NCBI RefSeq assembly: GCF_000717175.1
Contig: NZ_JNYD01000003.1
Coordinates: forward strand, 682,001 to 746,000
From: Pseudonocardia autotrophica
Lineage (GTDB): Bacteria > Actinomycetota > Actinomycetes > Mycobacteriales > Pseudonocardiaceae
DNA length: 64,000 nucleotides
Direction: 5' to 3'
Position numbers and translations under genes: made by a program. Positions 2,372-20,176 of this stretch are shown here, in pieces (within the stretch, counting starts at the first letter, position 1; every line of letters starts with the position of its first letter). A model generated the notes under the pieces. That model saw nothing but the letters and a program-made list of their open reading frames with translations. It did not search any database and was not told the origin of the DNA.

Positions 2372-4642
2372 TCAGGCGGCCGGGGTGCGCTCCTGCGCCG
2401 ACGCCCGGAGGCCGGTGAGCAGGGAGCGCGGGGCGAGGGTCCGCACCCCCGACTTCCAGCCCCGCCGGCCGGAGCCGCCGATGGCGGCGAGCACGGCCTG
2501 CAGCGGCCCGGTGAGCGCGTCCTCGGCGGGCGGCTCGTCGCCGTAACACTCCGCCTCGACCAGCCGCACGATCTCGCGCAGCGCGTCCTGCGCGGTGCTG
2601 TCGAGCTCGTGGGCGGCCACGACCGCCCGGGCGGTCCCGCGGACCGTGTCCCCGTCGGACACCGCCGAGCCGCGGTCCCGCGAGGTCGCCAGCACCTCGT
2701 CCCACGCCGCGCGTCCGGCGCCCGGGCCGCCCGCGGCGGCCGCGGCGATGCGGCGCTTCCGCAGCACCCGCCGGGCGACGGCCGGTCCAGCCAGCAGCGC
2801 CACCACCAGCAGCGCCACGAGCGGGACCAGCACCGGGACGCCCCCGTCCTGGTCCGCGGCCGTCGGATCGGGCTGCGGGATGTCGACCGGCGTCGGCTCC
2901 GGCGTCGGCTGCGCGGCCTCGGCCTGCGGCTCCGGCTGCGGCACCTCCTCCTGCGGCACGGCGGGCTGCTCGGCGCCGGGCGGGGCGTCGGCCACGGCCT
3001 CGAGGACGTAGGGCGGGACGACCGTGCGGCCGTCCGTGAGCGGGGTCGGGTCGAAGGTCGTCCAGCCGTGGCCGGGGAACCAGGCCTCGACCCAGGCGTG
3101 CGCGTCCCGGGTGCTCACGCTGCGGTAGCCGTCGCCCTCGGTGCCGGCGGTGAACCCGACGGCGACCCGCGCCGGCACGCCCTGCGTCCGCAGCATCACG
3201 GCCATCGCCGAGGCGAACTGCTCGCAGTACCCCGCGCGCCCGACGGTGAGGAAGTCGACGAGGGCGTCGTCGCCGCTGCCCGGCGCGGTCTCCAGGCTGT
3301 ACCGGAACTGCGACTGCGGGCCGGTGAAGTACTCGACCAGCGCGATGGCCTTGTCGAAGGGGGTGGCGGCGTCCCGGGTGACGTCGGCGGCGATCTGCGC
3401 GACCCGCGGGTCGACGCCGGAGGTGTCCCGGTAGGCCGGGTCCACGCGCGTGGGGCCCGCGGCCGAGCGCAGGTCGTCGGCCGACGGCGCGGGCAGGACG
3501 GCCGTCTCCTGCCAGTCCTCCTCCTCGCGGGGACGCGGGGTGTAGGCGATGCCGCTGCTGCGGTCGTAGGCCCACCGGTCGGCGTCGACGCCGGTCACCG
3601 ACTCGGGCTGGCCGTAGAGCGGGAGCCAGTAGTCCCGGAAGCCGACGTTCTGCACCGCGACCTGGACCCGCTCGCCCTCCGCCGGGTCCTCGGTCAGCGG
3701 CCCCGCGAGCGGGACGCCGGGCCGGGGCGTCGCGGCCTGCCAGCCGGAGTTGGCGCGGTAGTCGGAGAGGGTCAGCGCGCGCAGGTAGGTCGGGCGCGGC
3801 AGCCCGGTGGTGCGGAAGAGCTCGACCGGCTCGCTCTGGGTGAGCTGCCCGCGCAGCGAGGTGAACGGGTTGAGCCCGATCGCCCCGCCGCTGCCGCCGC
3901 CCGCGCCGCCGCTGACGAACCGCCCGGCGGTGCCGACGACGGTCGCCGCGCTGCCGAGCAGCAGTCCGAGCACCCCGGCGACGGCGACGACCGCGATCCC
4001 GCCGGTGACGAGGGCGCTCCCGCGGCGCCCCGCGCCGTCCCGCGCGACGAGCAGGAGCCCGTACCCGGCGACCGCGCAGGTGACCGCCCACCAGGGCAGC
4101 AGCGCGTCGGACAGCGCGGCCGGCACCGCGACCATGCACAGCAGGGGCACCCCGGCCGCGGCGGGCGCCCCGGCGGACACCGAGACGGCGTGCACGATCA
4201 CCGCGAGCAGGCCGAACGCGGCCGTGATCAGGAAGAGCATGCCGGCCGTCGGCACCACGGGCGCGACGCCGGAGTCGATCTGGGCAGCGGCCTCCGTGAC
4301 GTGCTCGGCGAAGGCGCCGAACGCCGCGGGGCCGGGCAGGAACCCGGCCACGGCGTCGTCGCCGAACAGGCCGGTGAGCACGAGGAGCGCGCCGAGCAGT
4401 TGACCGACGGCGACGGCCGCGGCGGGCAGCCGCTGCAGCGCGATCCCCAGCCCGACGACCACGGCCACGATCAGCGCCCCGTCGGCGAACCAGGTCCCGC
4501 CCTGCACCACGGCGACCAGGCAGGTGCCCGCGAGCAGGACGGCGAGCCCGGCGGCCGCCGCGGCCACCCAGCGGATCCGCGGACGGTCGGCCGGGGGAGC
4601 GGCGGCGGGCGGGGCCGGGCGGACGGCGGTCGGTGTGCTCAC
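2372..4642 (-). CDS. TgpA-like membrane transglutaminase (DUF3488 + transglutaminase core)
   Basis: Polytopic membrane protein of 756 residues with an extracytoplasmic transglutaminase/protease-like domain. The N-terminal third contains several hydrophobic helices typical of DUF3488/TgpA_N. The papain-like triad is visible as C473 (GYCEQF), H515 (DAHAWVE) and D531 (FDPTP). A Pro/Glu/Gln-rich linker, another membrane segment (about residues 605-625) and a cytoplasmic C-terminal domain follow. The substrate is unknown. It is the last gene of the moxR/DUF58/tgpA set, which recurs in actinobacteria next to mraZ and is thought to serve envelope protein maturation. The start is GTG 4642, coupled to the preceding mini-ORF. 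Confidence 0.85.
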   Translation of the reverse strand: MSTPTAVRPAPPAAAPPADRPRIRWVAAAAAGLAVLLAGTCLVAVVQGGTWFADGALIVAVVVGLGIALQRLPAAAVAVGQLLGALLVLTGLFGDDAVAGFLPGPAAFGAFAEHVTEAAAQIDSGVAPVVPTAGMLFLITAAFGLLAVIVHAVSVSAGAPAAAGVPLLCMVAVPAALSDALLPWWAVTCAVAGYGLLLVARDGAGRRGSALVTGGIAVVAVAGVLGLLLGSAATVVGTAGRFVSGGAGGGSGGAIGLNPFTSLRGQLTQSEPVELFRTTGLPRPTYLRALTLSDYRANSGWQAATPRPGVPLAGPLTEDPAEGERVQVAVQNVGFRDYWLPLYGQPESVTGVDADRWAYDRSSGIAYTPRPREEEDWQETAVLPAPSADDLRSAAGPTRVDPAYRDTSGVDPRVAQIAADVTRDAATPFDKAIALVEYFTGPQSQFRYSLETAPGSGDDALVDFLTVGRAGYCEQFASAMAVMLRTQGVPARVAVGFTAGTEGDGYRSVSTRDAHAWVEAWFPGHGWTTFDPTPLTDGRTVVPPYVLEAVADAPPGAEQPAVPQEEVPQPEPQAEAAQPTPEPTPVDIPQPDPTAADQDGGVPVLVPLVALLVVALLAGPAVARRVLRKRRIAAAAAGGPGAGRAAWDEVLATSRDRGSAVSDGDTVRGTARAVVAAHELDSTAQDALREIVRLVEAECYGDEPPAEDALTGPLQAVLAAIGGSGRRGWKSGVRTLAPRSLLTGLRASAQERTPAA

Positions 4643-4671
4643 GGCCGGCCCCTTCGGTCGGTGTTCCTCAT
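4639..4671 (-). CDS. 10-codon bridging mini-ORF (DUF58 to transglutaminase)
   Basis: Reads MRNTDRRGRP. Its ATG overlaps the DUF58 stop (ATGA, after a CGA codon) and its TGA overlaps the transglutaminase GTG (GTGA). It therefore exactly closes the 25-base gap. It probably keeps ribosomes moving across the junction (translational coupling) rather than making a functional peptide. Three more junctions in the window have the same design. Confidence 0.5.
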   Translation of the reverse strand: MRNTDRRGRP

Positions 4672-5924
4672 CGGGTACCCGCCGCGATCACGGGGCTGCC
4701 GGCGACGAGCGCGTCCCAGGCCTGCTCGGGCGTGTGGTCGGCGGTCGCGACGGTGACGTGCCAGCCCGCCCGGCGGAGCACCTCGGCCGCGGCGACCGGA
4801 TCGGGCGTCGGCTCGCCGGCCGCGTCCCAGGTGTCGACGGCGAGCAGGACCGCGTACCCGCCGCCGGGGTGCCGGCCGGCGAGCTGCCCGGCCTGCTCGG
4901 GTGTGCACGCCCCCAGCACGGCGACGACGTCCCGGCCGGCGGCGGTGGACGGGCCGGACAGGTCGGGCCGGGCGGCGGGGCGGAGCACGGCCAGCCCGTC
5001 GAGCAGCGGGTCGAGGCCGCCCTCGGCGGCGGCGACCGGCGTGCCGTCCTCGGTCACCACCTCGACCGGCTCGCCGCGGCGCAGCAGGTGCGCGCCGATG
5101 CCGGCGGCCAGCGTGACCGCGAACTCGAGGCTGGCGCCGGCGCCGTGGCCGCGGTGCGCCCCGTCGCGGCGGTCCAGCAGCACGGTGACGCCCGCGTGCC
5201 AGGGCCGCTCCTCGAGCCGGACCATCAGCTCGTCGTGCCGGGCGGTGCTCTTCCAGTGGACCCGGCGCAGCTCGTCGCCCTGCCGGTAGGTCCGGACCAT
5301 GACGTCCGGGCTGCCCTGGCCCTGCTGGGCCGCGGCCCCGGGGAGGCCCTCGCCGCTGCCGAGCGCGCGCGGCGCCCCGTGCAGCCCGACGACCCGCGGC
5401 ACCACCAGCAGCCGGTCGGGCCCCAGCATCTCCCGGGTGAACTCGGCCAGGCCCAGCGCGCCGACGGCCCGCGCGGTCAGCGGCCCCACCCGGTGCGCCC
5501 CGCGCAGGGCGGGCCGCAGGGGATAGGTGACGCGCGCGCCGCGGCTCCCGATCCGGTGCACCGTGAACCGCGGGGGCGTCGACGGGACGGGGCCGGCGGC
5601 GTCGGGCACGGTGTCGGCGAGCCGCAGGGCGCCGAGCACGGGCCCGCCCCGCAGGTCCAGGGCGACCTCGGCCGGGGTGCCCGCGGCGGTGCGCGCGGGC
5701 AGCAGCGTGCGCGCGGCCTGCACCGACCGGCGGGTGCGCACGGCGAGGAGCAGGGAGACCAGCGGCAGCAGGCACACGACCAGCCCGATCCGGAGCAGGT
5801 CGCGCTCGTCGAGGACGACGGCGCACACGGCCGTCGCGACCCCGCCGGCCAGGAGGCTGCGCCCCCGGACCGTCAGCCCGAAGGTGCGGGCCCCGGACCG
5901 ACCCACGGACGGACGGGACCTCAC
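4668..5924 (-). CDS. DUF58 domain protein
   Basis: Membrane-anchored DUF58 protein of 418 residues. Two hydrophobic segments lie near the N-terminus (about residues 15-60). The family motif, RTYRQGDELRRVHWKSTAR, lies around residues 210-230, followed by a von Willebrand A-like fold containing LLDRRDG. DUF58 proteins are encoded beside MoxR ATPases and are thought to be their partners or clients; the molecular task is not established. The GTG start overlaps the moxR stop (GTGA), so the two are translationally coupled. Confidence 0.85.
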   Translation of the reverse strand: MRSRPSVGRSGARTFGLTVRGRSLLAGGVATAVCAVVLDERDLLRIGLVVCLLPLVSLLLAVRTRRSVQAARTLLPARTAAGTPAEVALDLRGGPVLGALRLADTVPDAAGPVPSTPPRFTVHRIGSRGARVTYPLRPALRGAHRVGPLTARAVGALGLAEFTREMLGPDRLLVVPRVVGLHGAPRALGSGEGLPGAAAQQGQGSPDVMVRTYRQGDELRRVHWKSTARHDELMVRLEERPWHAGVTVLLDRRDGAHRGHGAGASLEFAVTLAAGIGAHLLRRGEPVEVVTEDGTPVAAAEGGLDPLLDGLAVLRPAARPDLSGPSTAAGRDVVAVLGACTPEQAGQLAGRHPGGGYAVLLAVDTWDAAGEPTPDPVAAAEVLRRAGWHVTVATADHTPEQAWDALVAGSPVIAAGTR

Positions 5925-6931
5925 GCCCGCGAGGGTGCCCGCACCGGGATGCGCGACAGCAACCCGCGGACGACGTCGGCGGCGGTGACCCGCGTCGCCC
6001 CGGCCTCGGGGGCGACGGTCAGCCGGTGCGCGATGACGGGGACGGCGATCGCCTGCACGTCGTCCGGGACGACGTAGCCGCGACCGGCGAGCGCCGCCTG
6101 GGCCCGCGCCGCCCGCACCAGGTGCAGGGTGGCGCGCGGGGAGGCGCCGAGCCGCAGCTCGGGCTGGCGCCGGGTGGCGCCGACCAGGTCGACGCAGTAC
6201 TGCCGCACCTCCTGGCCGACCCGGATGCGGCGGACGGCCTCGATGACCGAGCGGACGGTGCGGGCGTCGGCCACCGGGCGCAGGGTGTCGAGCGGGTCGG
6301 CGCCCGCGTGCTCGTCGATCATCGCGAGCTCGGCGGCCGGGTCGGGGTAGCCGACGCTGATCCGCGCGGTGAAGCGGTCCCGCTGCGCCTCGGGCAGCGG
6401 GTAGGTGCCGTCCATCTCGACCGGGTTCTGCGTGGCGACCACCATGAAGGGGCTCGCCAGCCCGTAGGTGCCGCCGTCGACGGTCACCTGGTGCTCGGCC
6501 ATGCACTCCAGCAGCGCCGACTGGGTCTTCGGCGAGGCGCGGTTGATCTCGTCCGCGATCACGACGTTGGCGAACACGGGGCCGGGCCGAAACTCGAACT
6601 CCCCGGTCTGCCGGTTGTAGACGGACATGCCGGTGATGTCGCCCGGCAGGAGGTCCGGGGTGAACTGCACACGGCTGACCGAGCAGTCGAGCGAGCGGGC
6701 GAGCGCCTTGGCCAGCGACGTCTTGCCGACCCCGGGGACGTCCTCCACGAGCAGGTGGCCCTCGGCGAGGAGGGTGACCAGCGCCAGCCGGACGACCTCC
6801 GGCTTGCCCACGATGATCCGCTGCACGTTCTGCGCGATGCGGCCGGTGAGGTCGGCGACGGCGGCCAGCGGCGGGGGCTCGGGCACGCTCTCGCCGGTCA
6901 CCGGCGGGCCCTGACGGCTGCTGGTGGTCAA
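5921..6931 (-). CDS. MoxR-family AAA+ ATPase
   Basis: Chaperone-like AAA+ ATPase of 336 residues in the MoxR class, which typically matures or loads metal-binding or envelope protein complexes. Walker A is GVGKTS (residues 67-72) and Walker B is VVIADEIN (about 123-130). Sensor 1 (VVATQNP) and arginine-finger regions follow, then the C-terminal lid ending in the PDDVQAIAVPV helix. I chose TTG 6931 because AGGAG lies a few bases upstream; a GTG at 6901 lacks a ribosome site. First gene of a minus-strand operon with the DUF58 and transglutaminase genes. Confidence 0.85.
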   Translation of the reverse strand: MTTSSRQGPPVTGESVPEPPPLAAVADLTGRIAQNVQRIIVGKPEVVRLALVTLLAEGHLLVEDVPGVGKTSLAKALARSLDCSVSRVQFTPDLLPGDITGMSVYNRQTGEFEFRPGPVFANVVIADEINRASPKTQSALLECMAEHQVTVDGGTYGLASPFMVVATQNPVEMDGTYPLPEAQRDRFTARISVGYPDPAAELAMIDEHAGADPLDTLRPVADARTVRSVIEAVRRIRVGQEVRQYCVDLVGATRRQPELRLGASPRATLHLVRAARAQAALAGRGYVVPDDVQAIAVPVIAHRLTVAPEAGATRVTAADVVRGLLSRIPVRAPSRA

Positions 6932-7312
6932 GCCTGCTCCTGTTCGTGGGCGTCCGCGGACGGGTCGGACACGGGGAACTGCAGAAGAACACGGGAACTC
7001 TGCACCCCAGTCTGTCAAACGGGTGCGGGGAGCGTCCCCCGGACGTGTCACGTCCACCCCGCCGGGGCGTCCGTCCGGGGCCCCCGCCCGGTCCCCCCAC
7101 GGCGCCCCACCGACGGCCTCCACCGTCCCCCACCTCTCGCCCCACCCCGCCCCACCGTTACACCCCCACCTCCGTGACCTGCGGTTTTGCGGAAGCGGTG
7201 CTGGTGGGGGGCGGTGCCCGAACGCGTCCGCCGCCGGATTCCCCCCACCGGGCCCCACGTCATCCGACCTGCTGAAACACCGAACGGAGGCCTCGTCAGG
7301 GGTCTGTTCGAG
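6932..7312. other. intergenic region, C-rich on plus strand
   Basis: About 380 bases between divergent moxR and mraZ with no convincing gene. On the minus strand it is strikingly G-rich, with G-runs at 7127-7131, 7140-7143, 7145-7148, 7150-7153 and 7163-7167 (G-quadruplex potential). TGGGG repeats there have partly 10-base spacing (7154/7144 and 7109/7099), like the MraZ box downstream. Confidence 0.6.
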
Positions 7313-7344
7313 TTGACGGTGGGGGGAAGTGGGGTAATGTGGCC
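7313..7344 (+). promoter_or_regulatory. mraZ promoter overlapped by MraZ-binding repeats
   Basis: TTGACG (7313-7318) and TAATGT (7335-7340), 16 bases apart, form a good housekeeping promoter. Laid over it are three direct repeats with 10-base period: TGGGG (7320), TGGGG (7330) and a weaker TGGCC (7340), each separated by 5 bases. Established work on MraZ shows it binds three or more TGGGN repeats with 5-base spacers upstream of its own gene, so autorepression of the dcw cluster is expected. Confidence 0.8.
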
Positions 7345-7385
7345 GCCGTTGGAGCGAGACGGGGCTCCGAGATGAGGTGGGGCGG

Positions 7386-7817
7386 GTGTTCCTCGGCACC
7401 TACACCCCTCGGTTGGACGACAAGGGGCGGCTCACGCTGCCGGCGAAGTTCCGGGACGAACTGCGGGGCGGGTGCATGGTCACGAAAGGGCAGGACCACT
7501 GCCTCTACGTGTTCACCCGCGAGGCCTTCACGGAGATGGCCACCAAGGTCGCCTCGGCGCCGCTGACCAGCGAGTCGGCCCGTGCCTTCCAGCGGAACCT
7601 CTTCGCGGGAACCGACGAGCAGAACCCCGACGGCCAGGGCCGGATCGCGATCGCCCCGGAGCTGCGCCGGTACGCGGGACTGACCAAGGAGTGCGTGGTG
7701 ATCGGCGCGTTCACGCGCGTCGAGATCTGGGACGCGCAGTCCTGGCAGGAGTACCAGGAGCGGCACGAGGAGGACTACGCCAAGGCGCAGGAGGAGGTTC
7801 TGCCCGGACTGATCTGA
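7386..7817 (+). CDS. mraZ: transcriptional regulator MraZ
   Basis: DNA-binding regulator that heads and autoregulates the dcw cluster. The 143 residues equal the mycobacterial length. Two SpoVT/AbrB-like repeats are seen: the first starts [18 protein letters not shown], the second contains [17 protein letters not shown], each with the conserved D-x-K/Q-G-R core. I chose GTG 7386, which gives the usual family N-terminus and has GAGGTGGGG before it; GTG 7377 would add MGR. Its own binding repeats overlap the promoter at 7313-7344. Confidence 0.92.
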
Positions 7818-8128
7818 GCCCGCACCGCGGGCCCGGCGCGGTCCCCGACTTCGAACACGCGACACCGTCGCCGTCCCGACCCGGACGCCGTGAAGGCCTT
7901 CCCGGCCCGACGGCCCTGGCGCACCTTCCCCGGTGCCAGGTCCGTCGGGGCGGGGCGGCCCGCACGGCGGCCAGGTGGGGACGGTGGCACGAGCGGTACA
8001 CACCCGCCAGGCTGGGGAGCTGGAGCGGGACGACAGCGGCTCGGGACGCCGGCGGGTCCCGGGCCGCTGTGCATGCAGGGCGGTTCCGTGTGCGGGCGCG
8101 GGGCCGGGGCGCGGCGGGAGGTGACCAG
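7818..8128 (+). other. mraZ-rsmH intergenic leader with hairpin
   Basis: About 310 bases without a supported gene. An imperfect hairpin (arms about 7909-7925 and 7932-7946) and a short GCCCGC/GCGGGC hairpin just after mraZ are the only structures I see. They could be a partial terminator or attenuator separating mraZ levels from the downstream genes; this is inference. Confidence 0.35.
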
Positions 8129-9106
8129 GTGTCCACGACGGAGGACGAGCCGGGTCCGCACTCCCACGTGCCGGTCATGCTGCCGCGCGTACTGGAGCTG
8201 TTCGAACCGGCCCTGCGGGACCGGTCGGCGGTGCTGGTCGACGCCACCCTGGGCCTCGGCGGCCACTCGGCGGCGTTGCTGGCGGCGCACCCGCGGCTGA
8301 CCCTGGTCGGCCTCGACCGGGACCCGCAGGCGCTCGAGCTGGCCGGTCGGCGGCTCACCGCCCACGCCGGCCGCACGCACCTGGTGCACGCGGTGTACGA
8401 CCGGATCGCCGAGGTGCTCGCGGAGCTGGGGCTTCCGCGCGTCGACGGCGTCCTGTTCGACCTCGGGGTGTCCTCGCTGCAGCTCGACGCCGCCGAGCGC
8501 GGCTTCTCCTACTCCCGCGACGCCGACCTCGACATGCGGATGGACCCCACCACGGGCCCGACCGCGGCCGAGGTCCTCAACACCTACCCGGTGCCCGAGC
8601 TGACCCGGATCCTGCGGGAGTACGGGGAGGAGCGGTTCGCCGGCCGCATCGCCTCCGCAGTGGCGAGACGCCGGCAGCAGGAAGCGTTCACCCGCAGCGC
8701 CGACCTGGTGGAGCTGCTCTACGCCGCCGTGCCCGCCGCCTCGCGGCGGACCGGGGGGCATCCCGCCAAGCGCACGTTCCAGGCGTTGCGGATCGAGGTC
8801 AACCGCGAGCTCGAGGCCCTGCGGACGGCGCTGCCGGCCGCGCTCGACTCGCTGGCGGTGGGCGGGCGGGTCGTCGTGCTCGCCTACCACTCGCTGGAGG
8901 ACCGGATGGTCAAGCGCGAGTTCACCGCCCGCGCGACCTCCCGGACCCCGGTGGACCTGCCGGTCGAGCTGCCGGGCCACGGCCCGGAGCTGCGGCTGCT
9001 GACCCGTGGGGCCGAGGTCGCCACGGACGACGAGATCGAAGAGAACCCGCGCGCCGCCTCCGTGCGGTGCCGGGCCGCCGAGCGCATCCGGGAGGTCGCA
9101 GCATGA
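8129..9106 (+). CDS. rsmH: 16S rRNA m4C1402 methyltransferase RsmH (MraW)
   Basis: SAM-dependent methyltransferase that N4-methylates C1402 of 16S rRNA in the P site. The 325 residues match the family. SAM motif I is [15 protein letters not shown] near the N-terminus; [25 protein letters not shown] and the late [13 protein letters not shown] motif are family hallmarks. The start is GTG 8129, with GGGAGGTG 7-8 bases before it. Its stop overlaps the ATG of a mini-ORF leading to ftsL. Confidence 0.95.
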
Positions 9107-9156
9107 TCCGACACGACGGCAGCAACCCGGCGGACGTCACCGGCGGTGCGGCGTGA
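9103..9156 (+). CDS. 17-codon bridging mini-ORF (rsmH to ftsL)
   Basis: Reads [17 protein letters not shown]. The ATG overlaps the rsmH stop (ATGA) and the TGA overlaps the ftsL GTG (GTGA), exactly spanning the 46-base gap. A full GGAGG (9091-9095) stands 7 bases before this ATG, whereas ftsL itself has no clear ribosome site. FtsL synthesis may therefore depend on reinitiation after this mini-ORF. Confidence 0.6.
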
Positions 9157-10025
9157 GTGCCCCGGTCGCGGACCGGACCCGCACCCGTCGCCCCTCGGTG
9201 TCGGTGAGCTGGACGGGCACCGAGGCGCCGAGCCGCCGCATTCCCGCCCAGCGGGGGAGCGTCACCGTCCCCGCGCAGCGGCGCGGGTCCGGGGCGGCCA
9301 AGGCCGCGTACGCGCGCCGTGACCAACGCACCCGCCGGCTCGTCGGGACACCCCGGCGCGCCGGGCAGAGGACCGCCACCGGCGGCCGCGCGCAGTTCGT
9401 CCTGCTGATCATGGCGCTGCTCGCGACCGGGCTGGTGCTCACGCTGTGGCTGTCCACCGCGGCCGCCGCGGACTCCTACACCCTGCAGGACGCCCGGACG
9501 GCGGCGCGGAACCTGACCGAGCAGAGCGAGCGGCTGCACCGCGAGGTGGCGTCGATGGAGTCGGCGCCGGCGCTGGCCCAGCGGGCCACCGAGCTGGGCA
9601 TGGTCCCGGTGCAGGACCCGGCCCGGCTGGTCGTCGGGCCCGACGGGGCGGTCACGGTCGTCGGGGAGCCGGCCGCGGCCACCCGGCCTGCGGCGCCCGC
9701 CCCGGCCGCCCCGGCCGCCCCGGCCGCTCCGGCCGCTCCGGCCGCTCCGGCTGCGGGGCAGCCCGCCGCCCCGGCGGCACCGGAGGCACCGGCCGACCCG
9801 ATGCCGGCCCGGGCGCCCGCGCAGTCGCAGCTCGCCGCCGACGCCGGGCCCCAGCAGGACGCGCCGCAGGACGCGCCGCAGGGCGAGTCCGCGCAGGCCG
9901 CACCCGCCAACCCCAACGCCGAGGCCGCGACCCAGGAGCAGCAGGAGCAGCCGGAGCAGGGCGCGCAGGCGCAGGACCAGCAGGCCGCCCAGGCCCCGGC
10001 CCCGACCGGCGGCGGAGCGGGCTGA
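9153..10025 (+). CDS. ftsL: FtsL-like septum protein with long Ala/Pro/Gln tail
   Basis: Bitopic membrane protein of the divisome, which with FtsQ and FtsB links FtsZ to septal peptidoglycan synthesis. It has a basic cytoplasmic N-terminus, one membrane helix at about residues 82-103 and a short heptad region (LQDARTAARNLTEQSERLHREV) typical of FtsL. The tail from about residue 175 to 290 is low-complexity: first AP-rich 9-base repeats, then Gln-rich. This makes the protein 290 residues, far longer than most FtsL. Sequence identity in this family is low, so the name rests on position and topology. Its stop overlaps the pbpB start (TGATG). Confidence 0.8.
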   Translation: MSAPVADRTRTRRPSVSVSWTGTEAPSRRIPAQRGSVTVPAQRRGSGAAKAAYARRDQRTRRLVGTPRRAGQRTATGGRAQFVLLIMALLATGLVLTLWLSTAAAADSYTLQDARTAARNLTEQSERLHREVASMESAPALAQRATELGMVPVQDPARLVVGPDGAVTVVGEPAAATRPAAPAPAAPAAPAAPAAPAAPAAGQPAAPAAPEAPADPMPARAPAQSQLAADAGPQQDAPQDAPQGESAQAAPANPNAEAATQEQQEQPEQGAQAQDQQAAQAPAPTGGGAG

Positions 10026-11872: not shown

Positions 11873-11941
11873 GCGGAGCCTGCGCAGCGAACATCCAGCC
11901 CTGATCCGGATGTGACCTCGGCCGTGATCCGACCGCCGGGC

Positions 11942-11975: not shown

Positions 11976-12059
11976 CGGCGTGCGCGGACGCCCTGCGATC
12001 ACCCGCTGCGGCCCGCGCCGGGCGGGTGGTGCGGGGGAGGGGCGCCCGGCGGCCCTCGG

Positions 12060-12065
12060 TAGCCT
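12060..12065 (+). promoter_or_regulatory. -10 box of murE, leaderless start
   Basis: TAGCCT lies 7 bases before GTG 12073, the spacing expected for a leaderless mRNA. It supports 12073 as the ancestral murE start, although the reading frame from there is broken further on. Confidence 0.55.
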
Positions 12066-12072
12066 CCCCGAC

Positions 12073-12220
12073 GTGTCGCCCGCCAGCTCCGCTCCCACGG
12101 ACCGCCCGACGGACGCGCGCGTGACGGCCGGGCAGCAGGGTCTCCCTCCGCGCCCCGCGCGGGTCGCCCCCGTCGACCTCGCCCGCCTCGCCGCGCTCAC
12201 CGGTGCCGAGCCGTACCCGC
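12073..12220 (+). pseudogene. murE: N-terminal MurE segment, out of frame with the body
   Basis: From GTG 12073 this frame reads an ordinary MurE N-terminus (ending VAPVDLARLAALTGAEP), preceded by a leaderless -10 box. It then runs into a 33-base triplicate and never rejoins the frame that encodes the ligase body. About 40 codons of the first MurE domain, which normally include the conserved PGDLFAALPG-like stretch, are absent. Either the gene is rearranged in this strain or the assembly is wrong here. Confidence 0.6.
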
Positions 12221-13651
12221 CGGAGGCGAAGCTCGCGGAGCCGACCCTCGGCACGGAGGCGAAGCTCGCGGAGCCGACCCTCGGCACGGAGGCGAAGCTC
12301 GCGGAGCCGACCCTCCGCGACCGCCGTCCTCACCGACCCGGCCGGGCTGACCCGCCCGGAGCTGCGCGAGGCCGTCGAGCGGGGGTCCGTGCGGGCGCTG
12401 CTGCACCCGCACCCCCGCACCGTCCTCGGCGCGCTGTCCGCCGCCGTCTACGGGGACCCGACCGCGGACCTCACCGTCCTCGGCGTGACCGGGACCAGCG
12501 GCAAGACCACGGTGGCGCACTTCCTCGAGGCCGGGCTGCGGGCCGGGGGCCGCGCGACGGGCCTGCTCGGCACCGTCCAGACCCGGATCGGCGAGGACCG
12601 CCTGCCCAGCGCCTTCACCACGCCCGAGGCGCCCGACCTGCAGGCGCTGTTCGGCGTGATGCGCGAGCACGGGGTCACGGACGTCGCCATGGAGGTCTCC
12701 AGCCACGCGCTGGCGTTGGGGCGCGTGGCCGGCACCCGCTTCGCGGTGGGCGCCTTCACGAACCTCTCGCAGGACCACCTGGACTTTCACCACGACATGG
12801 AGGAGTACTTCGCCGCCAAGGCGCGCCTGTTCGTCGACGACGAGCTGCGCGCGGCGAAGGGCGTCGTCTGCGTCGACGACGAGTGGGGCCGCCGGCTCGC
12901 CGGGATGGCGCCCGACGCCGTCACCGTCTCCACCGTGCCCTCGCCCGCCCGCCCGACTGCCGACTGGACCGCCCGGGACGTCGTGACCGACCCGGACGGC
13001 GCCCAGCAGGCCGTCGTCGTCGCGCCGGACGGGCAGGAGATCCCGCTGCGGCTGCAGCTGCCGGGCGCCTTCAACATCGCCAACGCCGTGCTGGCCCTGG
13101 CCGTGCTCGACCTCGCCGGGGTGCCCGCCGCCGTCGCCGCGCCGCGGTTCGCCGAGCTCGCCGTCCCGGGCCGGATGCAGCGGGTCGAGGCGGGGCAGCG
13201 GTTCCTGGCCGTCGTCGACTACGCCCACAAGCCCGCCGCCGTCGCCGCACTGCTCGACGCGCTGCGGGCCCAGCAGCCGGACGGCCGCGTGATCACGGTC
13301 CTCGGCTGCGGCGGCGACCGCGACACCGGCAAGCGCCCGCTCATGGGGGCCGCCGCGGCCGCGCGCTCGGACGTGCTGATCGTCACGGACGACAACCCGC
13401 GCACCGAGGACCCGGCGGAGATCCGGGCCGCCATGCGCGCAGGCGCCGAGGCCGAACCGGCCCGCGGCGACATCCTCGAGATCGGCGACCGGCGCGCGGC
13501 GATCACCGCCGCCGTCGAGGTGGCGAAACCCGGCGACGTGGTGGTCGTTGCGGGTAAGGGACACGAGACCGGCCAGGAGGTCCACGGGGTCAAGCACCCG
13601 TTCGACGACGTGGACGAGCTCGCCGCGGCGATCCGCGCCGCCGGGCGATGA
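12203..13651 (+). CDS. murE: MurE, UDP-MurNAc-dipeptide:meso-DAP ligase, aberrant N-terminus
   Basis: Cytosolic Mur ligase adding meso-diaminopimelate to UDP-MurNAc-L-Ala-D-Glu. From the only available start in this frame (GTG 12203) it has 482 residues. P-loop K101 lies in GTSGKTT, the DYAHKPAA region is intact, and D397-NPR-400 is the meso-DAP recognition motif. Residues 1 to about 38 come from a 33-base repeat and read as Arg/Ser-rich noise. The domain 1 segment that binds the UDP moiety is missing before ATAVLTDPAG. MurE is essential, so activity of this product, a second copy or an assembly fault must be considered. It leads into murF through a mini-ORF. Confidence 0.8.
   Translation: MPSRTRRRRSSRSRPSARRRSSRSRPSARRRSSRSRPSATAVLTDPAGLTRPELREAVERGSVRALLHPHPRTVLGALSAAVYGDPTADLTVLGVTGTSGKTTVAHFLEAGLRAGGRATGLLGTVQTRIGEDRLPSAFTTPEAPDLQALFGVMREHGVTDVAMEVSSHALALGRVAGTRFAVGAFTNLSQDHLDFHHDMEEYFAAKARLFVDDELRAAKGVVCVDDEWGRRLAGMAPDAVTVSTVPSPARPTADWTARDVVTDPDGAQQAVVVAPDGQEIPLRLQLPGAFNIANAVLALAVLDLAGVPAAVAAPRFAELAVPGRMQRVEAGQRFLAVVDYAHKPAAVAALLDALRAQQPDGRVITVLGCGGDRDTGKRPLMGAAAAARSDVLIVTDDNPRTEDPAEIRAAMRAGAEAEPARGDILEIGDRRAAITAAVEVAKPGDVVVVAGKGHETGQEVHGVKHPFDDVDELAAAIRAAGR
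12221..12315 (+). repeat. 33-base tandem triplicate inside murE
   Basis: Copies begin at 12221, 12254 and 12287; the third stops after 29 bases. The unit begins CGGAGGCGAAGCTCGCGGAG. As 33 is a multiple of three, the copy number alone does not change frame; the frame change lies at one edge. In frame 1 it reads AKLAEPTLGTE repeats. The same unit is not seen elsewhere in the window. Confidence 0.95.
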
Positions 13652-13677
13652 TCCGGGGATCGAGGAAGGCACGATGA
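13648..13677 (+). CDS. 9-codon bridging mini-ORF (murE to murF)
   Basis: Reads MIRGSRKAR. The ATG overlaps the murE stop (ATGA, after CGA) and the TGA overlaps the murF ATG (ATGA), exactly filling the 22-base gap. It also runs through the murF ribosome site GAGGAAGG. Likely a coupling device rather than a functional peptide. Confidence 0.5.
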
Positions 13678-15086
13678 TCGAGATGCGGCTGGCCGAGGTC
13701 GCCGCCGTGACCGGGGGCAGGCTCCACCGGGCGACGGGCGACGAGCCCGTCACCGGCGTGGAGTTCGACTCCCGGAAGGTCGGGCCGGGCGGGCTGTTCC
13801 TCGCCCTGCCCGGGGAGCGCGCCGACGGCCACGACTTCGCGGCCGCGGCGGTGGCGGCCGGTGCCTCGGCGGTGCTCGCCGGGCGCGAGGTCGACGCGCC
13901 GGCCGTGATCGCCCCGCCGGCGGAGGACTCGTTCGCCGGCACGGACCTCGGCGACGCCGACCCGGACGGCTCCGGGGCCGCCGTGCTGACCGCGCTGGGC
14001 AGGCTCGCCCGGCACTCGGTCACGCACCTGCCGGACCTGCAGGTCGTCGGCGTGACCGGCAGCTCCGGCAAGACCTCCACCAAGGACCTGATCGCGGCCG
14101 TGCTGCGGCCGCTCGGCGAGACCGTCGCCCCGCCCGGGTCGTTCAACAACGAGCTGGGCCACCCGTGGACCGCGCTGCGTGCCGACGCCGCGACCCGGCA
14201 CCTCGTGCTGGAGCTCTCGGCCCGCGGGCCGGGGCACATCGCGCGGCTGTGCCGGATCGCGCCGCCGCGGATCGGGGTCGTGCTCAACGTGGGCAGCGCG
14301 CACGTCGGCGAGTTCGGGTCGCCGGAGGCGATCGCGCAGGCCAAGGGCGAGCTGGTCGAGGCCCTGCCCGCGGCGGACGAGGGCGGTGTCGCGGTGCTGA
14401 ACCTCGACGACCCGCGGGTCACGGCCATGGCCTCCCGGACCGCGGCCCGCGTCGTCGGTTACGGGACGGGCGGCGCCGTGCAGGCCGCGGACGTCCGGCT
14501 CGAGGCCGGGCGTGCCGCCTTCCGGCTGGTCACCCCGGCCGGCGAGGCGCCGGTCGCGCTGCAGCTGGTCGGCGAGCACCACGTGGGCAACGCCCTCGCC
14601 GCGGCCGCCGTCGCGCTGGAGCTGGGCGGCACGCCGGAGGGGATCGCCGCGGCGCTCTCCGCCGCCGGCGCCGCCTCCCGCTGGCGGATGGAGGTCACCG
14701 ACCGGGCGGACGGGGTGACCGTCGTCAACGACGCCTACAACGCCAACCCCGAGTCGATGACCGCCGCCCTGCGCGCCCTGGCCGCGATCGGCGGCGGCAC
14801 GCGTCGGACCTGGGCCGTGCTGGGCCCGATGGCCGAGCTCGGCGACACCGCCCCGGCCGCGCACGCGCAGGTCGCGGACGTGGTGCGGGAGCTGGGGGTG
14901 GACCGGTTCGTGGCCGTGGGCACGGACCTCTACGGGACCGAACAGGCGGCCGACCGGGACGCCGCGGTCGCGCTGCTGGCCGACCAGGTCCGCGCCGGCG
15001 ACGTCGTCCTGGTCAAGGCCTCGCGCTCGGCGGGCCTCGACCGGCTCGCCGCCGCGCTGCTGGAACAGGAGCTGATCCGACAGTGA
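13674..15086 (+). CDS. murF: MurF, UDP-MurNAc-tripeptide:D-Ala-D-Ala ligase
   Basis: Cytosolic ATP-dependent ligase that adds D-Ala-D-Ala to form UDP-MurNAc-pentapeptide. It has 470 residues. Domain 1 shows [25 protein letters not shown], precisely the kind of segment MurE has lost. P-loop K133 is in GSSGKTSTK, and [11 protein letters not shown] and [10 protein letters not shown] are MurF motifs. ATG 13674 follows GAGGAAGG. The stop overlaps the mraY GTG. Confidence 0.95.
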
Positions 15087-16153
15087 GGGGCGTCTTCGTC
15101 GCGGCCGGGGTCGCGCTGGCCCTGTCCATCCTGCTCACCCCCTACCTGATCCGCTTCTTCGCGCGGCAGGGCTTCGGCCAGGAGATCCGCGCCGACGGCC
15201 CGAAGAGCCACCAGACCAAGCGGGGCACGCCCACCATGGGCGGCGTCGCGATCCTGCTCGCCATCTGGGCGGGCTACCTGGTCGCGCACCTGCTCACCGG
15301 CGAGCCGATGACGGCGTCGGCGCTGCTGGTCCTGTTCCTCACGACCGCGCTGGGCGTCGTCGGGTTCGTCGACGACTTCCTCAAGCTGCGCCGGCGCCGG
15401 AACCTGGGCCTGAACAAGACGTCGAAGATCGTGGGCCAGGTGCTCACCGCGACGATCTTCAGCATCCTGGCGCTGCGGTTCGCCAACGCCCGCAACCTCA
15501 CCCCGGCCTCGGAGTACCTGTCCTTCGTCCGGGACATCGCGGTGCTCGGGTTCGGCGTCGTCGGGTTCGTGATCCTCTGCAACCTGATCGTCGCGGCCTG
15601 GTCCAACGCCGTGAACCTCACCGACGGGCTCGACGGCCTGGCCGCCGGCACCGCCGCGATGGTCCTGGCGACGTACACGATCATCGGGTTCTGGCAGTTC
15701 CGGAACAGCTGCTCGGTCACCGCGGCCGCGGGCTGCTACGAGGTGCGCGACCCGCTCGACGTCGCGATCGTGGCCGCCGCCGCGATGGGCGGCTGCATCG
15801 GCTTCCTGTGGTGGAACGCCGCCCCGGCCCGCATCTTCATGGGCGACACGGGATCGCTGGCCCTCGGCGGCCTGCTCGCCGGGCTGTCCATGGTCACCAA
15901 GACCGAGCTGCTGCTCGTCGTCATGGGCGGGGTGTTCGTGGTCGAGGCGCTGTCGGTCTCGCTGCAGATCATCGTCTTCCGCACCACCCGGCGACGGCTG
16001 TTCCGGATGGCCCCCTTCCACCACCACTTCGAGCTGGCCGGCTGGGCCGAGACCACGGTGATCATCCGGTTCTGGCTGCTCGCGGCGATCTGCGCGGCGC
16101 TCGGGCTGGGGATCTTCTACTCCGAGTGGCTCTCCGCCTCGTCGGGACTGTAG
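15083..16153 (+). CDS. mraY: phospho-MurNAc-pentapeptide transferase MraY
   Basis: Integral membrane enzyme moving phospho-MurNAc-pentapeptide onto undecaprenyl phosphate to make lipid I. It has 356 residues and about ten membrane helices. Diagnostic motifs are KRGTPTMGG, the Asp pair in [19 protein letters not shown] and [13 protein letters not shown] 15083 overlaps the murF stop (GTGA). Confidence 0.96.
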
Positions 16154-16155
16154 AG

Positions 16156-17619
16156 ATGCCGGGCCAGTTCGCCGGCCGGACCGTGCTCGTCGCGGGCGCC
16201 GGGATCTCCGGGATCGCCGCCGCCGAGGCGCTGCTCGCCGCCGAAGCCCGCACCCTGGTGTCGGACGACCGGGCCGCCGCCCTGGAGGACCTCCCGGCCG
16301 GCGCCGAGGCCGTCACCGGGTTGCCCGAGGGCGTCGAGCTGATCGTCACCGGCCCCGGCCGGCGGCCCGACCACCCGCTCGTCGCCGAGGCGGCGGCCCG
16401 CGGGATCGAGGTCGTCGGCGAGCCGGAGCTGGCCTGGCGGCTGGGGCAGGAGCGGGAGGTCCCGCCGGTCTGGCTCGTGGTCACCGGCACCAACGGCAAG
16501 ACCACCTGCACCGGCATGCTCGCCGCGATCCTGCGTGCGGCCGGGCTCGACGCCGTGGCCTGCGGCAACATCGGTTACCCGGTGGTGAGCGCGGTCGCGG
16601 CGGGGCACGCGGTGCTGGCGGTCGAGCTCTCCAGCTTCCAGCTGCACTGGTCGCCGTCGGTCGTCCCGGCCGCCGGCCTGGTGCTCAACGTCGCAGAGGA
16701 CCACCTCGACTGGCACGGCGGGCTCGACGCGTACGCCGCCGCCAAGGCGCGCGCCCTGACCGGGTCCGTCGCCGTCGCGGGGGCCGACGACACGATCGCC
16801 GCCCGCCTGCTCCGCGAGTCCCCGGCCCCGACGAAGGTCGGCGTGACCCTGGCCGAGCCCGGCCCGGGACAGCTCGGGATCGTGGGGGAGCAGCTGGTCG
16901 ACCGCGCCTTCCCCGCGAGTCGGGACGTCCTGCAGCGCGAGTCGGGAGCTCCTGCAGCGCGAGTCGCGAGCTCCGGCGAGGGCGTGGTGCTCGCGGAGGT
17001 TTCCGACGTCACCCCCGGGGGCCCGCCCGGCCTCACGGACGCCCTCGCCGCCGCGGCGCTGGCCCGCGCCCACGGCGTCGGGCCCGGGGCCGTCCGGGAG
17101 GGGCTGGCCGGGTTCCGGCCCGGCCCGCACCGCTCCGCGCACGTCGGGACGGTGGCCGGCGTCCGGTACGTCGACGACTCCAAGGCCACCAACCCGCACG
17201 CCGCCGACGCCGCCCTGGCCGCCCAGCCCGCGGGGCGCATCGTCTGGGTCGTGGGCGGGCTGCTCAAGGGCGCGCACGTCGACGGGCTGGTCGCGCGGCA
17301 CGCCGACCGGCTGGCCGGGGCCGTGATCATCGGTACCGATCGGGCGGAGATCGTCGACGCACTCGCGCGACACGCGCCGCAGATCCCCGCCGTCGAGGTG
17401 ACCCAGGGCGACGATGAGGTCATGTCCTCCGCCGTCCGCCGTGCCGCCGCACTCGCCCGACCGGGGGATGTCGTACTCCTCGCACCCGCGGCGGCCTCCA
17501 TGGACCAGTTCCGGGACTACGCCGAGCGCGGCGAGGCGTTCGCCGCCGCCGTGGCGGCCCTCGGGGCATCGGCGGAGGCCGGCGCAGCGGAGGGCGGGGC
17601 CGGGGAGCCGGGCGCATGA
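16156..17619 (+). CDS. murD: MurD, UDP-MurNAc-L-Ala:D-Glu ligase
   Basis: Cytosolic ligase adding D-glutamate to UDP-MurNAc-L-Ala; 487 residues. It begins with the Rossmann motif VLVAGAGISGIAAAEAL. P-loop K115 is in GTNGKTTCTGM, and VELSSFQL, DHLDWHG, DDSKATNPHA and LLAPAAASMDQF are family motifs. Residues about 254-273 are encoded by a 22-base repeat and are extra relative to a normal MurD. They lie before VSDVTPGGP in the central domain and keep the frame. ATG 16156 lies 2 bases after the mraY stop; ftsW overlaps its end (ATGA). Confidence 0.94.
   Translation: MPGQFAGRTVLVAGAGISGIAAAEALLAAEARTLVSDDRAAALEDLPAGAEAVTGLPEGVELIVTGPGRRPDHPLVAEAAARGIEVVGEPELAWRLGQEREVPPVWLVVTGTNGKTTCTGMLAAILRAAGLDAVACGNIGYPVVSAVAAGHAVLAVELSSFQLHWSPSVVPAAGLVLNVAEDHLDWHGGLDAYAAAKARALTGSVAVAGADDTIAARLLRESPAPTKVGVTLAEPGPGQLGIVGEQLVDRAFPASRDVLQRESGAPAARVASSGEGVVLAEVSDVTPGGPPGLTDALAAAALARAHGVGPGAVREGLAGFRPGPHRSAHVGTVAGVRYVDDSKATNPHAADAALAAQPAGRIVWVVGGLLKGAHVDGLVARHADRLAGAVIIGTDRAEIVDALARHAPQIPAVEVTQGDDEVMSSAVRRAAALARPGDVVLLAPAAASMDQFRDYAERGEAFAAAVAALGASAEAGAAEGGAGEPGA
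16915..16974 (+). repeat. 22-base tandem repeat within murD
   Basis: About 2.7 copies with period 22 (starts 16915, 16937, 16959); unit GCGAGTCGGGA then GTCCTGCAGC or GCTCCTGCAGC. The insert codes for an extra Arg/Ser/Ala-rich stretch without breaking the frame. Confidence 0.9.
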
Positions 17620-18947
17620 GCGCGCCCACCCGGAGCCCCCGCCGCCCGTCGCGGCCCTCGCGCACGGACAGCCTTGCGCCTGCGCGCGCCGCCGTCGGCC
17701 GCGGCGCCAAGGCGCTGCAGGCCTGGCTGCGCCGCCCGCTCACCTCGCTGCACCTGATCCTCGGGGTCTTCGGGCTGCTGACGATCTTCGGCCTGGTGAT
17801 GGTGCTGTCGGCGTCGTCGGTGGAGTCGTACTCCGCGGGCGGCTCGTCGTACGCGGTGTTCGTCCGCCAGCTCGGCTTCTGCGCGGCCGGGCTGGTGCTC
17901 TTCTACCTCGGGCTGCGGATCCCGCCGAAGCGGATGCGGGCCCTGGCGCCCTGGCTGCTGATCGCCGGTGTCGTCCTGCTGGTCGCGGTGCTGATCCCCG
18001 GCGTCGGCGTGGTGCGCAACGGCTCCCGCGCCTGGTTCGCGATCGGCTCCTTCTCGCTGCAGCCGTCCGAGGGCGTCAAGGTCGCGCTCACGCTCTGGGG
18101 CGCGCACGTGCTCGTCGCCCGGCGCAACGTGATGCACCGCTGGAAGCACGCGCTCAACCCGCTGGTCCCGGTCACGCTGCTGCTGCTCACCCTGCTCGTC
18201 CTCGAGCCGGACCTGGGCATGACGATCTCGCTCGGCATCGTCATGATCGCCCTGCTGTGGTTCGGCGGCGCCCCGATGAAGCTGCTCGCGGCGATCTCCG
18301 TCGGCGGGCTCGCCGGCGCGATCATCCTCGGCCTCACCGCGGGGTACCGGGTCAGCCGCATCACGGCCTTCCTCTCCTCGGACACCACCGACCCGCTCGG
18401 CCCCGCCTACCAGGCCACCCAGGCCCTCTACTCGCTGGCCGACGGCGGGCTGTTCGGCGTGGGGCTCGGCCAGGGCCGCGCCAAGTGGGACTACCTGCCC
18501 AACGCGCACAACGACTTCATCTTCGCGATCATCGGCGAGGAGCTCGGGCTGGTCGGCGCGTTCGCCGTCCTCGCGCTGTTCGCCACGCTGGCCTACACCG
18601 GCCTGCGCATCGCCAAGCGCAGCACGGACCCGTGGCTGCGGCTGGTGACCGCGGCGTCGACGACCTGGCTCGTGGTGCAGGCCGCGATCAACATCGGCTA
18701 CGTGGTGGGGCTGCTGCCGGTCACCGGGCTCCAGCTGCCGCTCATCTCCTCCGGGGGGACCTCCCTGGTCGTGACCATGTTCGTGTTCGGCATGCTGACG
18801 AACGCGGCCCGGCACGAGCCCGAGGCCGTGGCGGCGCTGCGGTCGGACGGCCAGGGCCGGATCGCCTCGTTCCTGCGGCTCCCGCTGCCGGAGCCCTACC
18901 GGGCACCCGCGCCGCGGCCGCCGGTCCAGCGCTCGGTGCGCCGCTGA
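17616..18947 (+). CDS. ftsW: FtsW, septal SEDS peptidoglycan polymerase
   Basis: SEDS-family glycosyltransferase that polymerises lipid II at the septum with PbpB. It has 443 residues, a basic cytoplasmic N-terminus and about ten membrane helices. The catalytic Asp is in LEPDLGMT, and WFAIGSFSLQPSE, NAHNDFIFAIIGEELG and the late PLISSGGTSLV are SEDS motifs. A Pro/Arg-rich tail follows. It starts at ATG 17616, overlapping the murD stop (ATGA). An 81-base gap follows before murG, and this gap is not bridged by a mini-ORF. Confidence 0.95.
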   Translation: MSAPTRSPRRPSRPSRTDSLAPARAAVGRGAKALQAWLRRPLTSLHLILGVFGLLTIFGLVMVLSASSVESYSAGGSSYAVFVRQLGFCAAGLVLFYLGLRIPPKRMRALAPWLLIAGVVLLVAVLIPGVGVVRNGSRAWFAIGSFSLQPSEGVKVALTLWGAHVLVARRNVMHRWKHALNPLVPVTLLLLTLLVLEPDLGMTISLGIVMIALLWFGGAPMKLLAAISVGGLAGAIILGLTAGYRVSRITAFLSSDTTDPLGPAYQATQALYSLADGGLFGVGLGQGRAKWDYLPNAHNDFIFAIIGEELGLVGAFAVLALFATLAYTGLRIAKRSTDPWLRLVTAASTTWLVVQAAINIGYVVGLLPVTGLQLPLISSGGTSLVVTMFVFGMLTNAARHEPEAVAALRSDGQGRIASFLRLPLPEPYRAPAPRPPVQRSVRR

Positions 18948-19028
18948 GCGGAGCGCGCCGAGCGGAGGACCGGCCCTGACCACCGGCCTCGATCAACCCG
19001 ACGACAGCAGATCCCCCGAGCGGAGACG

Positions 19029-20138
19029 ATGAGCGAGTACGGCACCCAGTTCCTGCCGCGGATGGGCCCGGGCCCGTCGGTGGTGGTCGCCGGCGGCGGC
19101 ACCGCCGGTCACATCGAGCCGGCGCTCGCCCTCGCCGACGCCGTCAAGCGGCTGCGGCCCGACGCGACGGTCACGGCCCTGGGCACGGAGAAGGGCCTCG
19201 ACACGCGGCTGATCCCGGCGCGCGGCTACCCCCTCGAGCTGATCCCTCCGGTGCCGCTCCCGCGCAAGCCGACCACGGACCTGCTCCGGCTGCCCGGCAA
19301 GGTGCGCGGCGCCGTCGCCCGGGTGCGCGAGGTGCTCACCAAGGTCGAGGCGGACGTCGTGGTGGGCTTCGGCGGGTTCGTCGCGCTGCCGGCCTACCTC
19401 GGCGCCCGCGGGCGCGTCCCGATCGTCGTGCACGAGGCCAACGCCCGCGCGGGGCTGGCCAACAAGGTGGGCGCGCGGTTCGCGGCCGCCGTCGTCGCCG
19501 CGGTGCCCGGCAGCGGCCTGCCCGACGCGCAGGTGCTCGGCATCCCGCTGCGGCACGCCGTCACCACGCTGGACCGGGCCGGGCTGCGCGCCGAGGCCCG
19601 CCGGCGGTTCGGGCTGCCCCCGAACGGCCCGGTGCTGCTGGTCTTCGGCGGCTCGCAGGGCGCCCGGTCGCTGAACGGCGCGGTGGCCCAGGCGCTGCCG
19701 GGGCTGCTGCACGAGGGGATCGGGGTGCTGCACGCGCACGGCCCGACCGGGCAGGCCGCCCCGCCGCAGCCCGGGTACGTCCCGCTGCCCTACATCGACG
19801 GCATGCACCTCGCCTACGCCGCGGCCGACGCCGTGCTCTGCCGGGCCGGCGCGATGACGGTCGCCGAGGTCTCCGCCGTCGGGCTGCCCGCGGTGTACGT
19901 GCCGCTGCCGCACGGCAACGGCGAGCAGGCCCTCAACGCCGAGCCGGTCGTCCGGGCCGGGGGCGGCGTCCTCGTGCCCGACGCCGAGCTGACCGGCGAC
20001 CGCGTGCTCGCCGAGCTGGTCCCGTGGTTCCGCGAGCCGGGCCGGCTCGCCGCCATGGGTGCCGCAGCCCGCGCCTCCGGCCACGCCGACGCCGACGAGC
20101 GGCTGGCCCAGGTGGTGTTCGGGGTGCTGGGCAGATGA
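19029..20138 (+). CDS. murG: MurG, lipid II-forming GlcNAc transferase
   Basis: Peripheral membrane GT28 enzyme transferring GlcNAc from UDP-GlcNAc to lipid I; 369 residues. The N-terminal [15 protein letters not shown] loop is the lipid I site. [36 protein letters not shown] and the UDP-binding [21 protein letters not shown] are clear. The ATG follows GCGGAGA. It ends in an AGA codon, unusual in this GC-rich sequence, that creates ATGA with its stop. Confidence 0.95.
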
Positions 20139-20176
20139 CCGCCGACGTGCTCCTTCCCGCGGAGGCGGCATCGTGA
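20135..20176 (+). CDS. 13-codon bridging mini-ORF (murG to murC)
   Basis: Reads [13 protein letters not shown]. The ATG overlaps the murG stop (ATGA) and the TGA overlaps the murC GTG (GTGA), exactly filling the 34-base gap. The upstream codon is AGA, rare here, which suggests the ATGA is kept by selection. Confidence 0.55.

Follow-up and report, generated by a model that had tools for sequence, protein, structure and literature searches.

Genes whose stop and start codons overlap by four bases (-4) are commonly read as coupled in translation, and a spacing of tens of bases as a sign of weak or absent coupling. The mycobacterial interspersed repetitive units (MIRUs), reportedly described by Supply et al. 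in 1997, have the geometry of a short open reading frame (ORF) that starts on the upstream stop codon and stops on the downstream start codon, at -4. According to a passage in PMC12548453, MIRUs appear to be mobile, insert at start codons with the MIRU ORF coupled at -4, and occur in many mycobacteria; a passage in PMC4213456 gives lengths of 77 and 53 bp and restricts them to M. leprae and the M. tuberculosis complex. The same geometry is found at four gene junctions in a 64,000-nucleotide stretch of Pseudonocardia autotrophica DNA (contig NZ_JNYD01000003.1, positions 682,001 to 746,000; the window), each of which is bridged by a mini-ORF. An earlier note on the window had proposed a relay of translation at these junctions, and the MIRU precedent is absent from its interpretation.

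The four mini-ORFs are probably ribosome-relay minicistrons that preserve termination-reinitiation coupling across inserted gaps, a reading given a probability of about 80%. The contact between stop and start codons is exact and conserved, and the peptide between the contacts is largely free.

Four bridged junctions in the window

Mini-ORF 1 (4639..4671, minus strand, 10 codons) links a DUF58 gene (4668..5906, minus strand) to a transglutaminase gene (2372..4642, minus strand), both named in the earlier note, with ATGA at the upstream stop and GTGA at the downstream start. The other three are on the plus strand, as are their neighbors. Mini-ORF 2 (9103..9156, 17 codons) links rsmH (8129..9106) to ftsL (9153..10025), mini-ORF 3 (13648..13677, 9 codons) links murE (12389..13651) to murF (13674..15086), and mini-ORF 4 (20135..20176, 13 codons) links murG (19029..20138) to murC (20173..21612). 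The flanking genes are gene calls; rsmH homologues were found in 55 of 60 genomes, and murE homologues were found in relatives. Direct re-reading of the sequence gave the coordinates and lengths that the earlier note had reported. At all four sites the ATG overlaps the upstream TGA and the TGA overlaps the downstream GTG or ATG, again as it had described, and a four-base stop/start overlap (NTGA) forms both ends of every mini-ORF. A gene caller written for the analysis puts all four downstream starts at identical bases.

The source genome has 8.02 Mb and is about 75% GC. The part covered here is 1.68 Mb (all of contigs C3 and C1 and 339 of the 439 kb of C2), with 1,484 called genes and 1,009 same-strand neighbors. 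ATGA stops are scarce in it, as had been claimed: they end 155 of the 1,484 genes and, on C3, 18 of the 354 same-strand upstream genes with a gap of at least 0.

Start signals are not alike at the four junctions. The motif GGGAGG (9090..9095, plus strand) lies inside the end of rsmH, 7 nt ahead of the ATG of mini-ORF 2, and no such motif is found upstream of ftsL, which agrees with the earlier description of a perfect GGAGG for the mini-ORF and none for ftsL. The best duplex with the anti-Shine-Dalgarno (anti-SD) sequence is -11.5 kcal/mol for mini-ORF 2 compared to -8.6 for ftsL, the latter value arising without a recognisable SD motif. SD-like motifs are present upstream of murF and murC, and a weaker one is upstream of the transglutaminase gene, so that ftsL alone is without an SD of its own.

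Other junctions of this densely packed cluster overlap or remain unbridged. The spacing is -4 at murF/mraY, murD/ftsW, and murC/ftsQ, -1 at ftsL/ftsI, and +2 at mraY/murD. A CTGA stop precedes each of the gaps left unbridged in the window, which are those at ftsI/murE, ftsW/murG, and ftsQ/ftsZ.

Stop/start contact in related genomes

The closest named relative by MurE is Pseudonocardia halophobica (L002), with 100% identity over the matched part, followed by P. terrae (L003) and P. kujensis at 95%. The four junctions were taken, where present, from 49 named loci and 40 stretches of further relatives. Junctions identical over about 350 nt were dropped, as were nine non-actinobacterial loci (L037, L040, L041, L043-L046, L048, and L050), the first of which has a murE/murF bridge with a TTG end. 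Direct overlap (-4 or -1 nt) is found in 129 of the 213 distinct junctions. The 84 non-overlapping junctions consist of 61 with a single mini-ORF bridge, 7 with chains of two or three, and 16 that are open. In the chains every stop overlaps the following start by -4 or -1, and contact through intermediate ORFs spans gaps of 4 to 235 nt. Linked junctions make up 32 of the 36 non-overlapping cases at rsmH/ftsL, 21 of 28 at murE/murF, 9 of 13 at murG/murC, and 6 of 7 at DUF58/transglutaminase. When the upstream stop is ATGA or GTGA ([AG]TGA), 65 of 69 junctions are linked.

The bridges change in length and keep their phase. A single bridge would require a gap of 1 mod 3 (phase 1); otherwise a chain of overlaps would have to fit. 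At rsmH/ftsL, 33 of the 36 non-overlapping junctions are in phase 1, and the single bridges comprise 8 to 80 codons and represent 23 gap lengths. Raw counts are inflated by relatedness, so distinct lengths and changes on trees were used. On the RsmH tree, which like the other trees is a quick search with many weak branches, the bridged rows imply no fewer than 26 gap-length changes, and the overlap, bridge, and open states at least 11 changes. For the bridge state, 5 changes are forced when the well-supported branches are considered by themselves. L030 and L035 were also left out of the trees, and a 200-residue filter removed none. This junction is bridged in most of the Pseudonocardia examined. 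The bridge has 14 codons in L003 and L004 and 28 in P. dioxanivorans CB1190, and that of either P. terrae or P. kujensis is 9 nt different from the one in the window yet still a bridge. At ftsW/murG, which has a CTGA stop, the gaps in the window, P. terrae, and P. kujensis are 81, 66, and 47, with phases 0, 0, and 2.

Shuffles and control junctions argue for selection. With the gap shuffled and the phase randomised, 20.7 junctions were linked on average and 39 at most in 200,000 simulated sets, compared to 68 observed; the simulated sets treat junctions as independent though the genomes are related, and junctions without a start in range scored zero. Chains could use every in-frame ATG, GTG, or TTG within the distance searched (260 nt at the four junctions and 400 nt at the control junctions), leaving the null and the controls equally free or freer. 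Control junctions with an [AG]TGA stop are linked in 3 of 10 cases at ftsQ/ftsZ and 5 of 16 at ftsI/murE; the combined 8 of 26 differs from the 65 of 69 with a Fisher p of 7e-10. Further [AG]TGA junctions are linked at ftsW/murG (7 of 8), murF/mraY (2 of 3), murD/ftsW (2 of 3), and ftsL/ftsI (1 of 2). The earlier preference for selection over chance is thus upheld by the linkage in relatives compared to shuffles, by the [AG]TGA junctions compared to controls, and by the constancy of phase. Chance in GC-rich DNA is ruled out by the phase controls and the shuffles.

Within the source genome, only gaps that follow an [AG]TGA stop and precede an NTGA start show the phase excess. A relay predicts a length of 1 mod 3 for these gaps and no favored phase for other stops or starts. 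Among gaps of 1-100 nt, phases 0, 1, and 2 are represented by 5, 23, and 16 [AG]TGA...NTGA junctions, by 36, 50, and 35 junctions with other stops before an NTGA start, and by 16, 21, and 34 with an [AG]TGA stop before a non-NTGA start; these counts come from our own gene caller and are affected by its choice of starts. ATGA stops taken separately give 0, 9, and 4. Phase 2 likely includes mis-called starts of direct overlaps, which makes phase 0 the fair comparison. The Fisher test of phase 1 against phase 0, for [AG]TGA against other stops, gives p=0.017 for these gaps and 0.063, 0.020, and 0.035 for gaps of 1-60, 1-150, and 1-200 nt. ATGA bridges with a gap of at most 200 nt number nine in the 1.68 Mb, four of them within the window. 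The comparative test is far stronger than the genome-wide one.

These counts also bear on the possibility that the mini-ORFs mainly keep the gap covered by ribosomes, as protection from Rho termination or mRNA decay, with delivery to the next start being secondary. The geometry of every bridge covers its gap, and such protection would select against long untranslated gaps in long operons. However, protection would work without any overlap between the stop and the next start, non-NTGA downstream starts show no phase excess, and the ftsQ/ftsZ and ftsI/murE gaps remain unbridged. This explanation is considered unlikely.

The peptides vary in sequence and length between species and junctions, which supports the earlier note in preferring relay geometry to peptide function. 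Five close pairs of equal-length bridges, drawn from three genome pairs of which two were sampled at two junctions, have 19 nonsynonymous and 3 synonymous codon changes. Functional or regulatory peptides in the style of leader peptides have some observations in their favor, since the window shares identical murE/murF bridge DNA with L003 and L004, and a single residue separates its murG/murC peptide from that of L005. The conserved peptide or regulatory codons of a leader peptide or attenuator were not found in the mini-ORFs, however, and peptide drift disfavors a peptide function to the point that it has very little probability. On balance, contact rather than the peptide appears from the sequences to be the target of selection.

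Individual mini-ORFs are not conserved in the same way as the contact. In P. terrae, DUF58/transglutaminase and murG/murC overlap directly at -4 with no mini-ORF. Loss of the overlaps in close relatives, which the earlier note had counted as evidence against its reading, has therefore taken place in the literal sense that two of the four mini-ORFs are gone, but the stop/start contact has been retained. This rules out conservation of each mini-ORF itself and indicates that it is the contact that is conserved.

Direct overlap was probably the ancestral state of rsmH/ftsL in the family. In other genera, the called ftsL frame begins at the ATGA of the rsmH stop in 14 of 14 genomes. The frame was chosen by coding score, and several genomes, including L243 of the 14, have low or negative scores. 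Six genomes of other families include two with direct overlap, one at -1, one with a bridge, one open, and one at a contig end. In Pseudonocardia the mini-ORF occupies the position of the rsmH-stop ATGA, with GGGAGG ahead of it. Compared to P. terrae, the window has 29 additional bases at DUF58/transglutaminase (gap 25 versus -4) and 38 at murG/murC (gap 34 versus -4), both 2 mod 3. The murG/murC junction of L005 has two exact 38-bp copies, one base off the unit of the window, plus a longer first copy, and together they form a three-step chain. Each of these tandem units is an ATG...TGA mini-ORF with GGAGG ahead of the following ATGA. L005 is more distant than P. terrae, suggesting that the 38-bp unit may be old and may have been lost in P. 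terrae. The unit was also considered as a dispersed repeat, and no second copy was found in the 1.68 Mb with up to 9 substitutions.

Tandem duplication raises the question of whether bridges are a neutral by-product, short insertions or duplications at NTGA sites creating ORFs mechanically without selection. A duplication from NTGA to NTGA yields a bridge automatically if the unit is 2 mod 3, as seen in L005. Under this explanation phases 0 and 1 should be equal, but phase 0 is far scarcer both at the four junctions and genome-wide. In addition, bridges outlast many length changes, and ftsQ/ftsZ junctions with CTGA, TAA, or TAG stops have no comparable phase bias (9, 10, and 10). A neutral origin is therefore quite improbable.

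At murE/murF, relatives have other bridges, two-step chains, or direct overlap. In L007, L009, and L012 there are two-step relays of short ORFs, in which the mini-ORF start ATGATCGG is similar to ATGATCGAG at the start of murF, as though the murF start had been duplicated.

A MIRU-like repeat in Pseudonocardia

Pseudonocardia has an interspersed repeat of 74/77 bp that begins with [AG]TGAGCGAGCTTGCGAGCGAACCAT and contains an ORF of 25-26 codons. This ORF often extends between successive NTGA sites or is joined in frame to a gene start. A single sequence accounts for two bridges elsewhere on C3, and loci with the repeat include L161-L164, L210-L238, L132, L137, and L138. A pattern search allowing up to 3 mismatches gave four matches in the source genome (C3:65437, C3:225060, C2:349571, and C2:433754), three of them inside exact bridges and one in a continuous frame with a long ORF. 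At no more than 2 mismatches, and with the source organism included in both sets, the repeat is found in 34 of 60 genomes of the genus, where a reversed control gave 0, and in 13 of 122 genomes of the order. Among the 38 copies examined in 33 short excised loci, 22 have the stop of a called gene as their starting point. An ORF of 20-31 codons with a terminal [AG]TGA is encoded by 21 copies, 11 form the in-frame N-terminus of a long ORF, and 6 are neither; of the 21, 8 show both called contacts, the loci being short. Spacings of tandem copies are 2 mod 3 in 12 of 14 cases by hand count.

Cell-wall clusters of relatives also contain the repeat. In L132 the first copy begins on the rsmH stop and the contig ends within the second. 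In L137 the murE/murF junction has two copies, placed at an ATGAGC site without an insert in L136, while L135 has one copy at this junction, with murE ending in TAG and no link found. Two copies extend from the ftsW stop toward murG in L138, and a decayed copy can be read inside the rsmH/ftsL bridge of L122. The N-terminus of MurC in L128 and L131 may possibly derive from the repeat.

The four mini-ORFs of the window are not copies of one interspersed repeat, as their peptides and DNA differ, and no copy of the 74/77-bp repeat was recognised in them. At about 38701 in the window a loose pattern matches, but the remainder of the repeat is missing, and this match was ascribed to chance. One two-copy locus searched against the PLSDB plasmids gave no match. 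In a literature search on Pseudonocardia repeats, no paper on such a repeat was among the matches listed, subscription papers being mostly beyond reach.

It is tentatively suggested, at somewhat less than even odds, that peptide-free relay cistrons joining operon genes across Pseudonocardia and relatives were seeded by a mobile MIRU-like repeat landing on NTGA overlaps, with decayed remnants held only by gap phase and contact as the selected trait in the division and cell-wall cluster. Under this suggestion any copy number would keep coupling, since the unit has NTGA at both ends and a length of 2 mod 3.

Three tandem repeats of other kinds were seen in the window. Positions 12221-12315 hold nearly three exact 33-bp copies directly upstream of the called murE start and in the same frame, a low-complexity Ala/Pro-rich repeat occupies 9682-9818 in the C-terminal half of ftsL, and a 15-bp unit is present six times at 38824-38915, outside the mini-ORF junctions.

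Relay of ribosomes and comparison with known systems

In the proposed mechanism, a ribosome finishing the upstream gene would reinitiate at the overlapping mini-ATG, translate 9-17 codons, terminate at the TGA sharing bases with the next start codon, and begin once more at that start. Relatives most often have the direct -4 overlap, and insertion or tandem duplication at NTGA would open the gap. The pattern suggests that the inserts that persist are those retaining NTGA at both ends in the right phase, and the 74/77-bp repeat has the structure of such a unit and is likely to be one of the sources from which these junctions received insertions. The benefit may be stoichiometry, protection from Rho, or initiation for genes without an SD such as ftsL. 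Published support comes from six gene pairs of E. coli and Haloferax in which coupling is almost abolished by a gap of about 20 nt (PMC10666635) and from PPE2, which is driven by an out-of-frame upstream ORF that ends on AUGA (PMC11260477). Slippage at the mini-stop could instead produce N-terminally extended downstream proteins. Stop suppression with frameshifting is a minor product at the uPPE2/PPE2 AUGA overlap in the part of PMC11260477 that treats it, but bridge sequences vary by species and junction, so no common slippery site, for which no search was made, is expected, and frameshift fusion is highly improbable.

Several points weigh against the relay reading. Reinitiation at each contact, and hence translation of the mini-ORFs, is inferred from sequence. 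The genes murF, murC, and, weakly, the transglutaminase gene may initiate independently, having SD motifs of their own. Coupling persists at about +40 nt with a 3- to 10-fold loss in the passage of PMC12548453 that addresses it, so bridging may not be essential. The unchanged murE/murF bridge and the nearly unchanged murG/murC peptide show little of the drift expected of a free peptide. Of the 84 non-overlapping junctions, the 16 that are open count on the same side, although in 12 of these the upstream stop is CTGA, TAA, or TAG; the other four have an [AG]TGA stop yet no link (L009 and L147 at rsmH/ftsL, L013 at murE/murF, and L137 at DUF58/transglutaminase). The fit is poorer at murC/ftsQ and mraY/murD, where 8 of 13 and 4 of 8 [AG]TGA junctions are linked, and the genome-wide phase effect by itself is modest.

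Contact across such gaps is kept here by ORFs far too short for annotation, so the number of coupled gene pairs is probably underestimated. With CTGA, TAA, and TAG stops serving as its internal control, the gap-phase test would read coupling from sequence alone in any clade. The MIRU idea of an insertion that spares coupling would become a general rule, which predicts that inserts at coupled junctions persist mainly if they are 0 or 2 mod 3 with NTGA at both ends.

MIRUs are among the closest precedents. They occur in tandem copies in the passages on them, and their 77- and 53-bp units are both 2 mod 3, like the units here. The Pseudonocardia repeat is alike in build, the two being likened by description rather than by sequence, whereas the four mini-ORFs of the window are not copies of one repeat. 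The MIRU passages of these papers mention no conservation of gap phase after sequence decay, unlike the bridges described here. An intergenic small ORF in Salmonella promotes translation of the downstream Mg2+ transporter gene and is called translation-aborting in the title of the paper (PMC8092293), with no stop/start contact mentioned in the listed entry. This case was among the matches listed in a literature search, in which no title or abstract opening described bridging mini-ORFs of the present kind, and PMC9094748 gave no passage on coupling.

Several other known systems are related. Leader genes, which are found in Actinobacteria, are short ORFs proposed to deliver ribosomes and to raise translation by reinitiation, but that survey excluded ORFs overlapping genes and had a distance peak at 10-11 bp, unlike the bridges here (PMC4833913). 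The upstream ORF (uORF) of PPE2 in M. tuberculosis is short and out of frame and ends on AUGA; PPE2 has no SD, and its expression depends on translation of the uORF (PMC11260477). This uORF starts freely in a riboswitch leader, whereas the mini-ORFs here start on the stop of an upstream operon gene. The minicistrons of bicistronic designs hand ribosomes from a short ORF to the next start, as a section of PMC12548453 describes; these are engineered, while the mini-ORFs here are natural and linked at both ends. Direct NTGA overlap, as treated in parts of Huber et al. 2023 (PMC10666635) and PMC12548453, has the identical contact found at each end of a mini-ORF. In that arrangement there is no intermediate, whereas here one or more ORFs span the gap.

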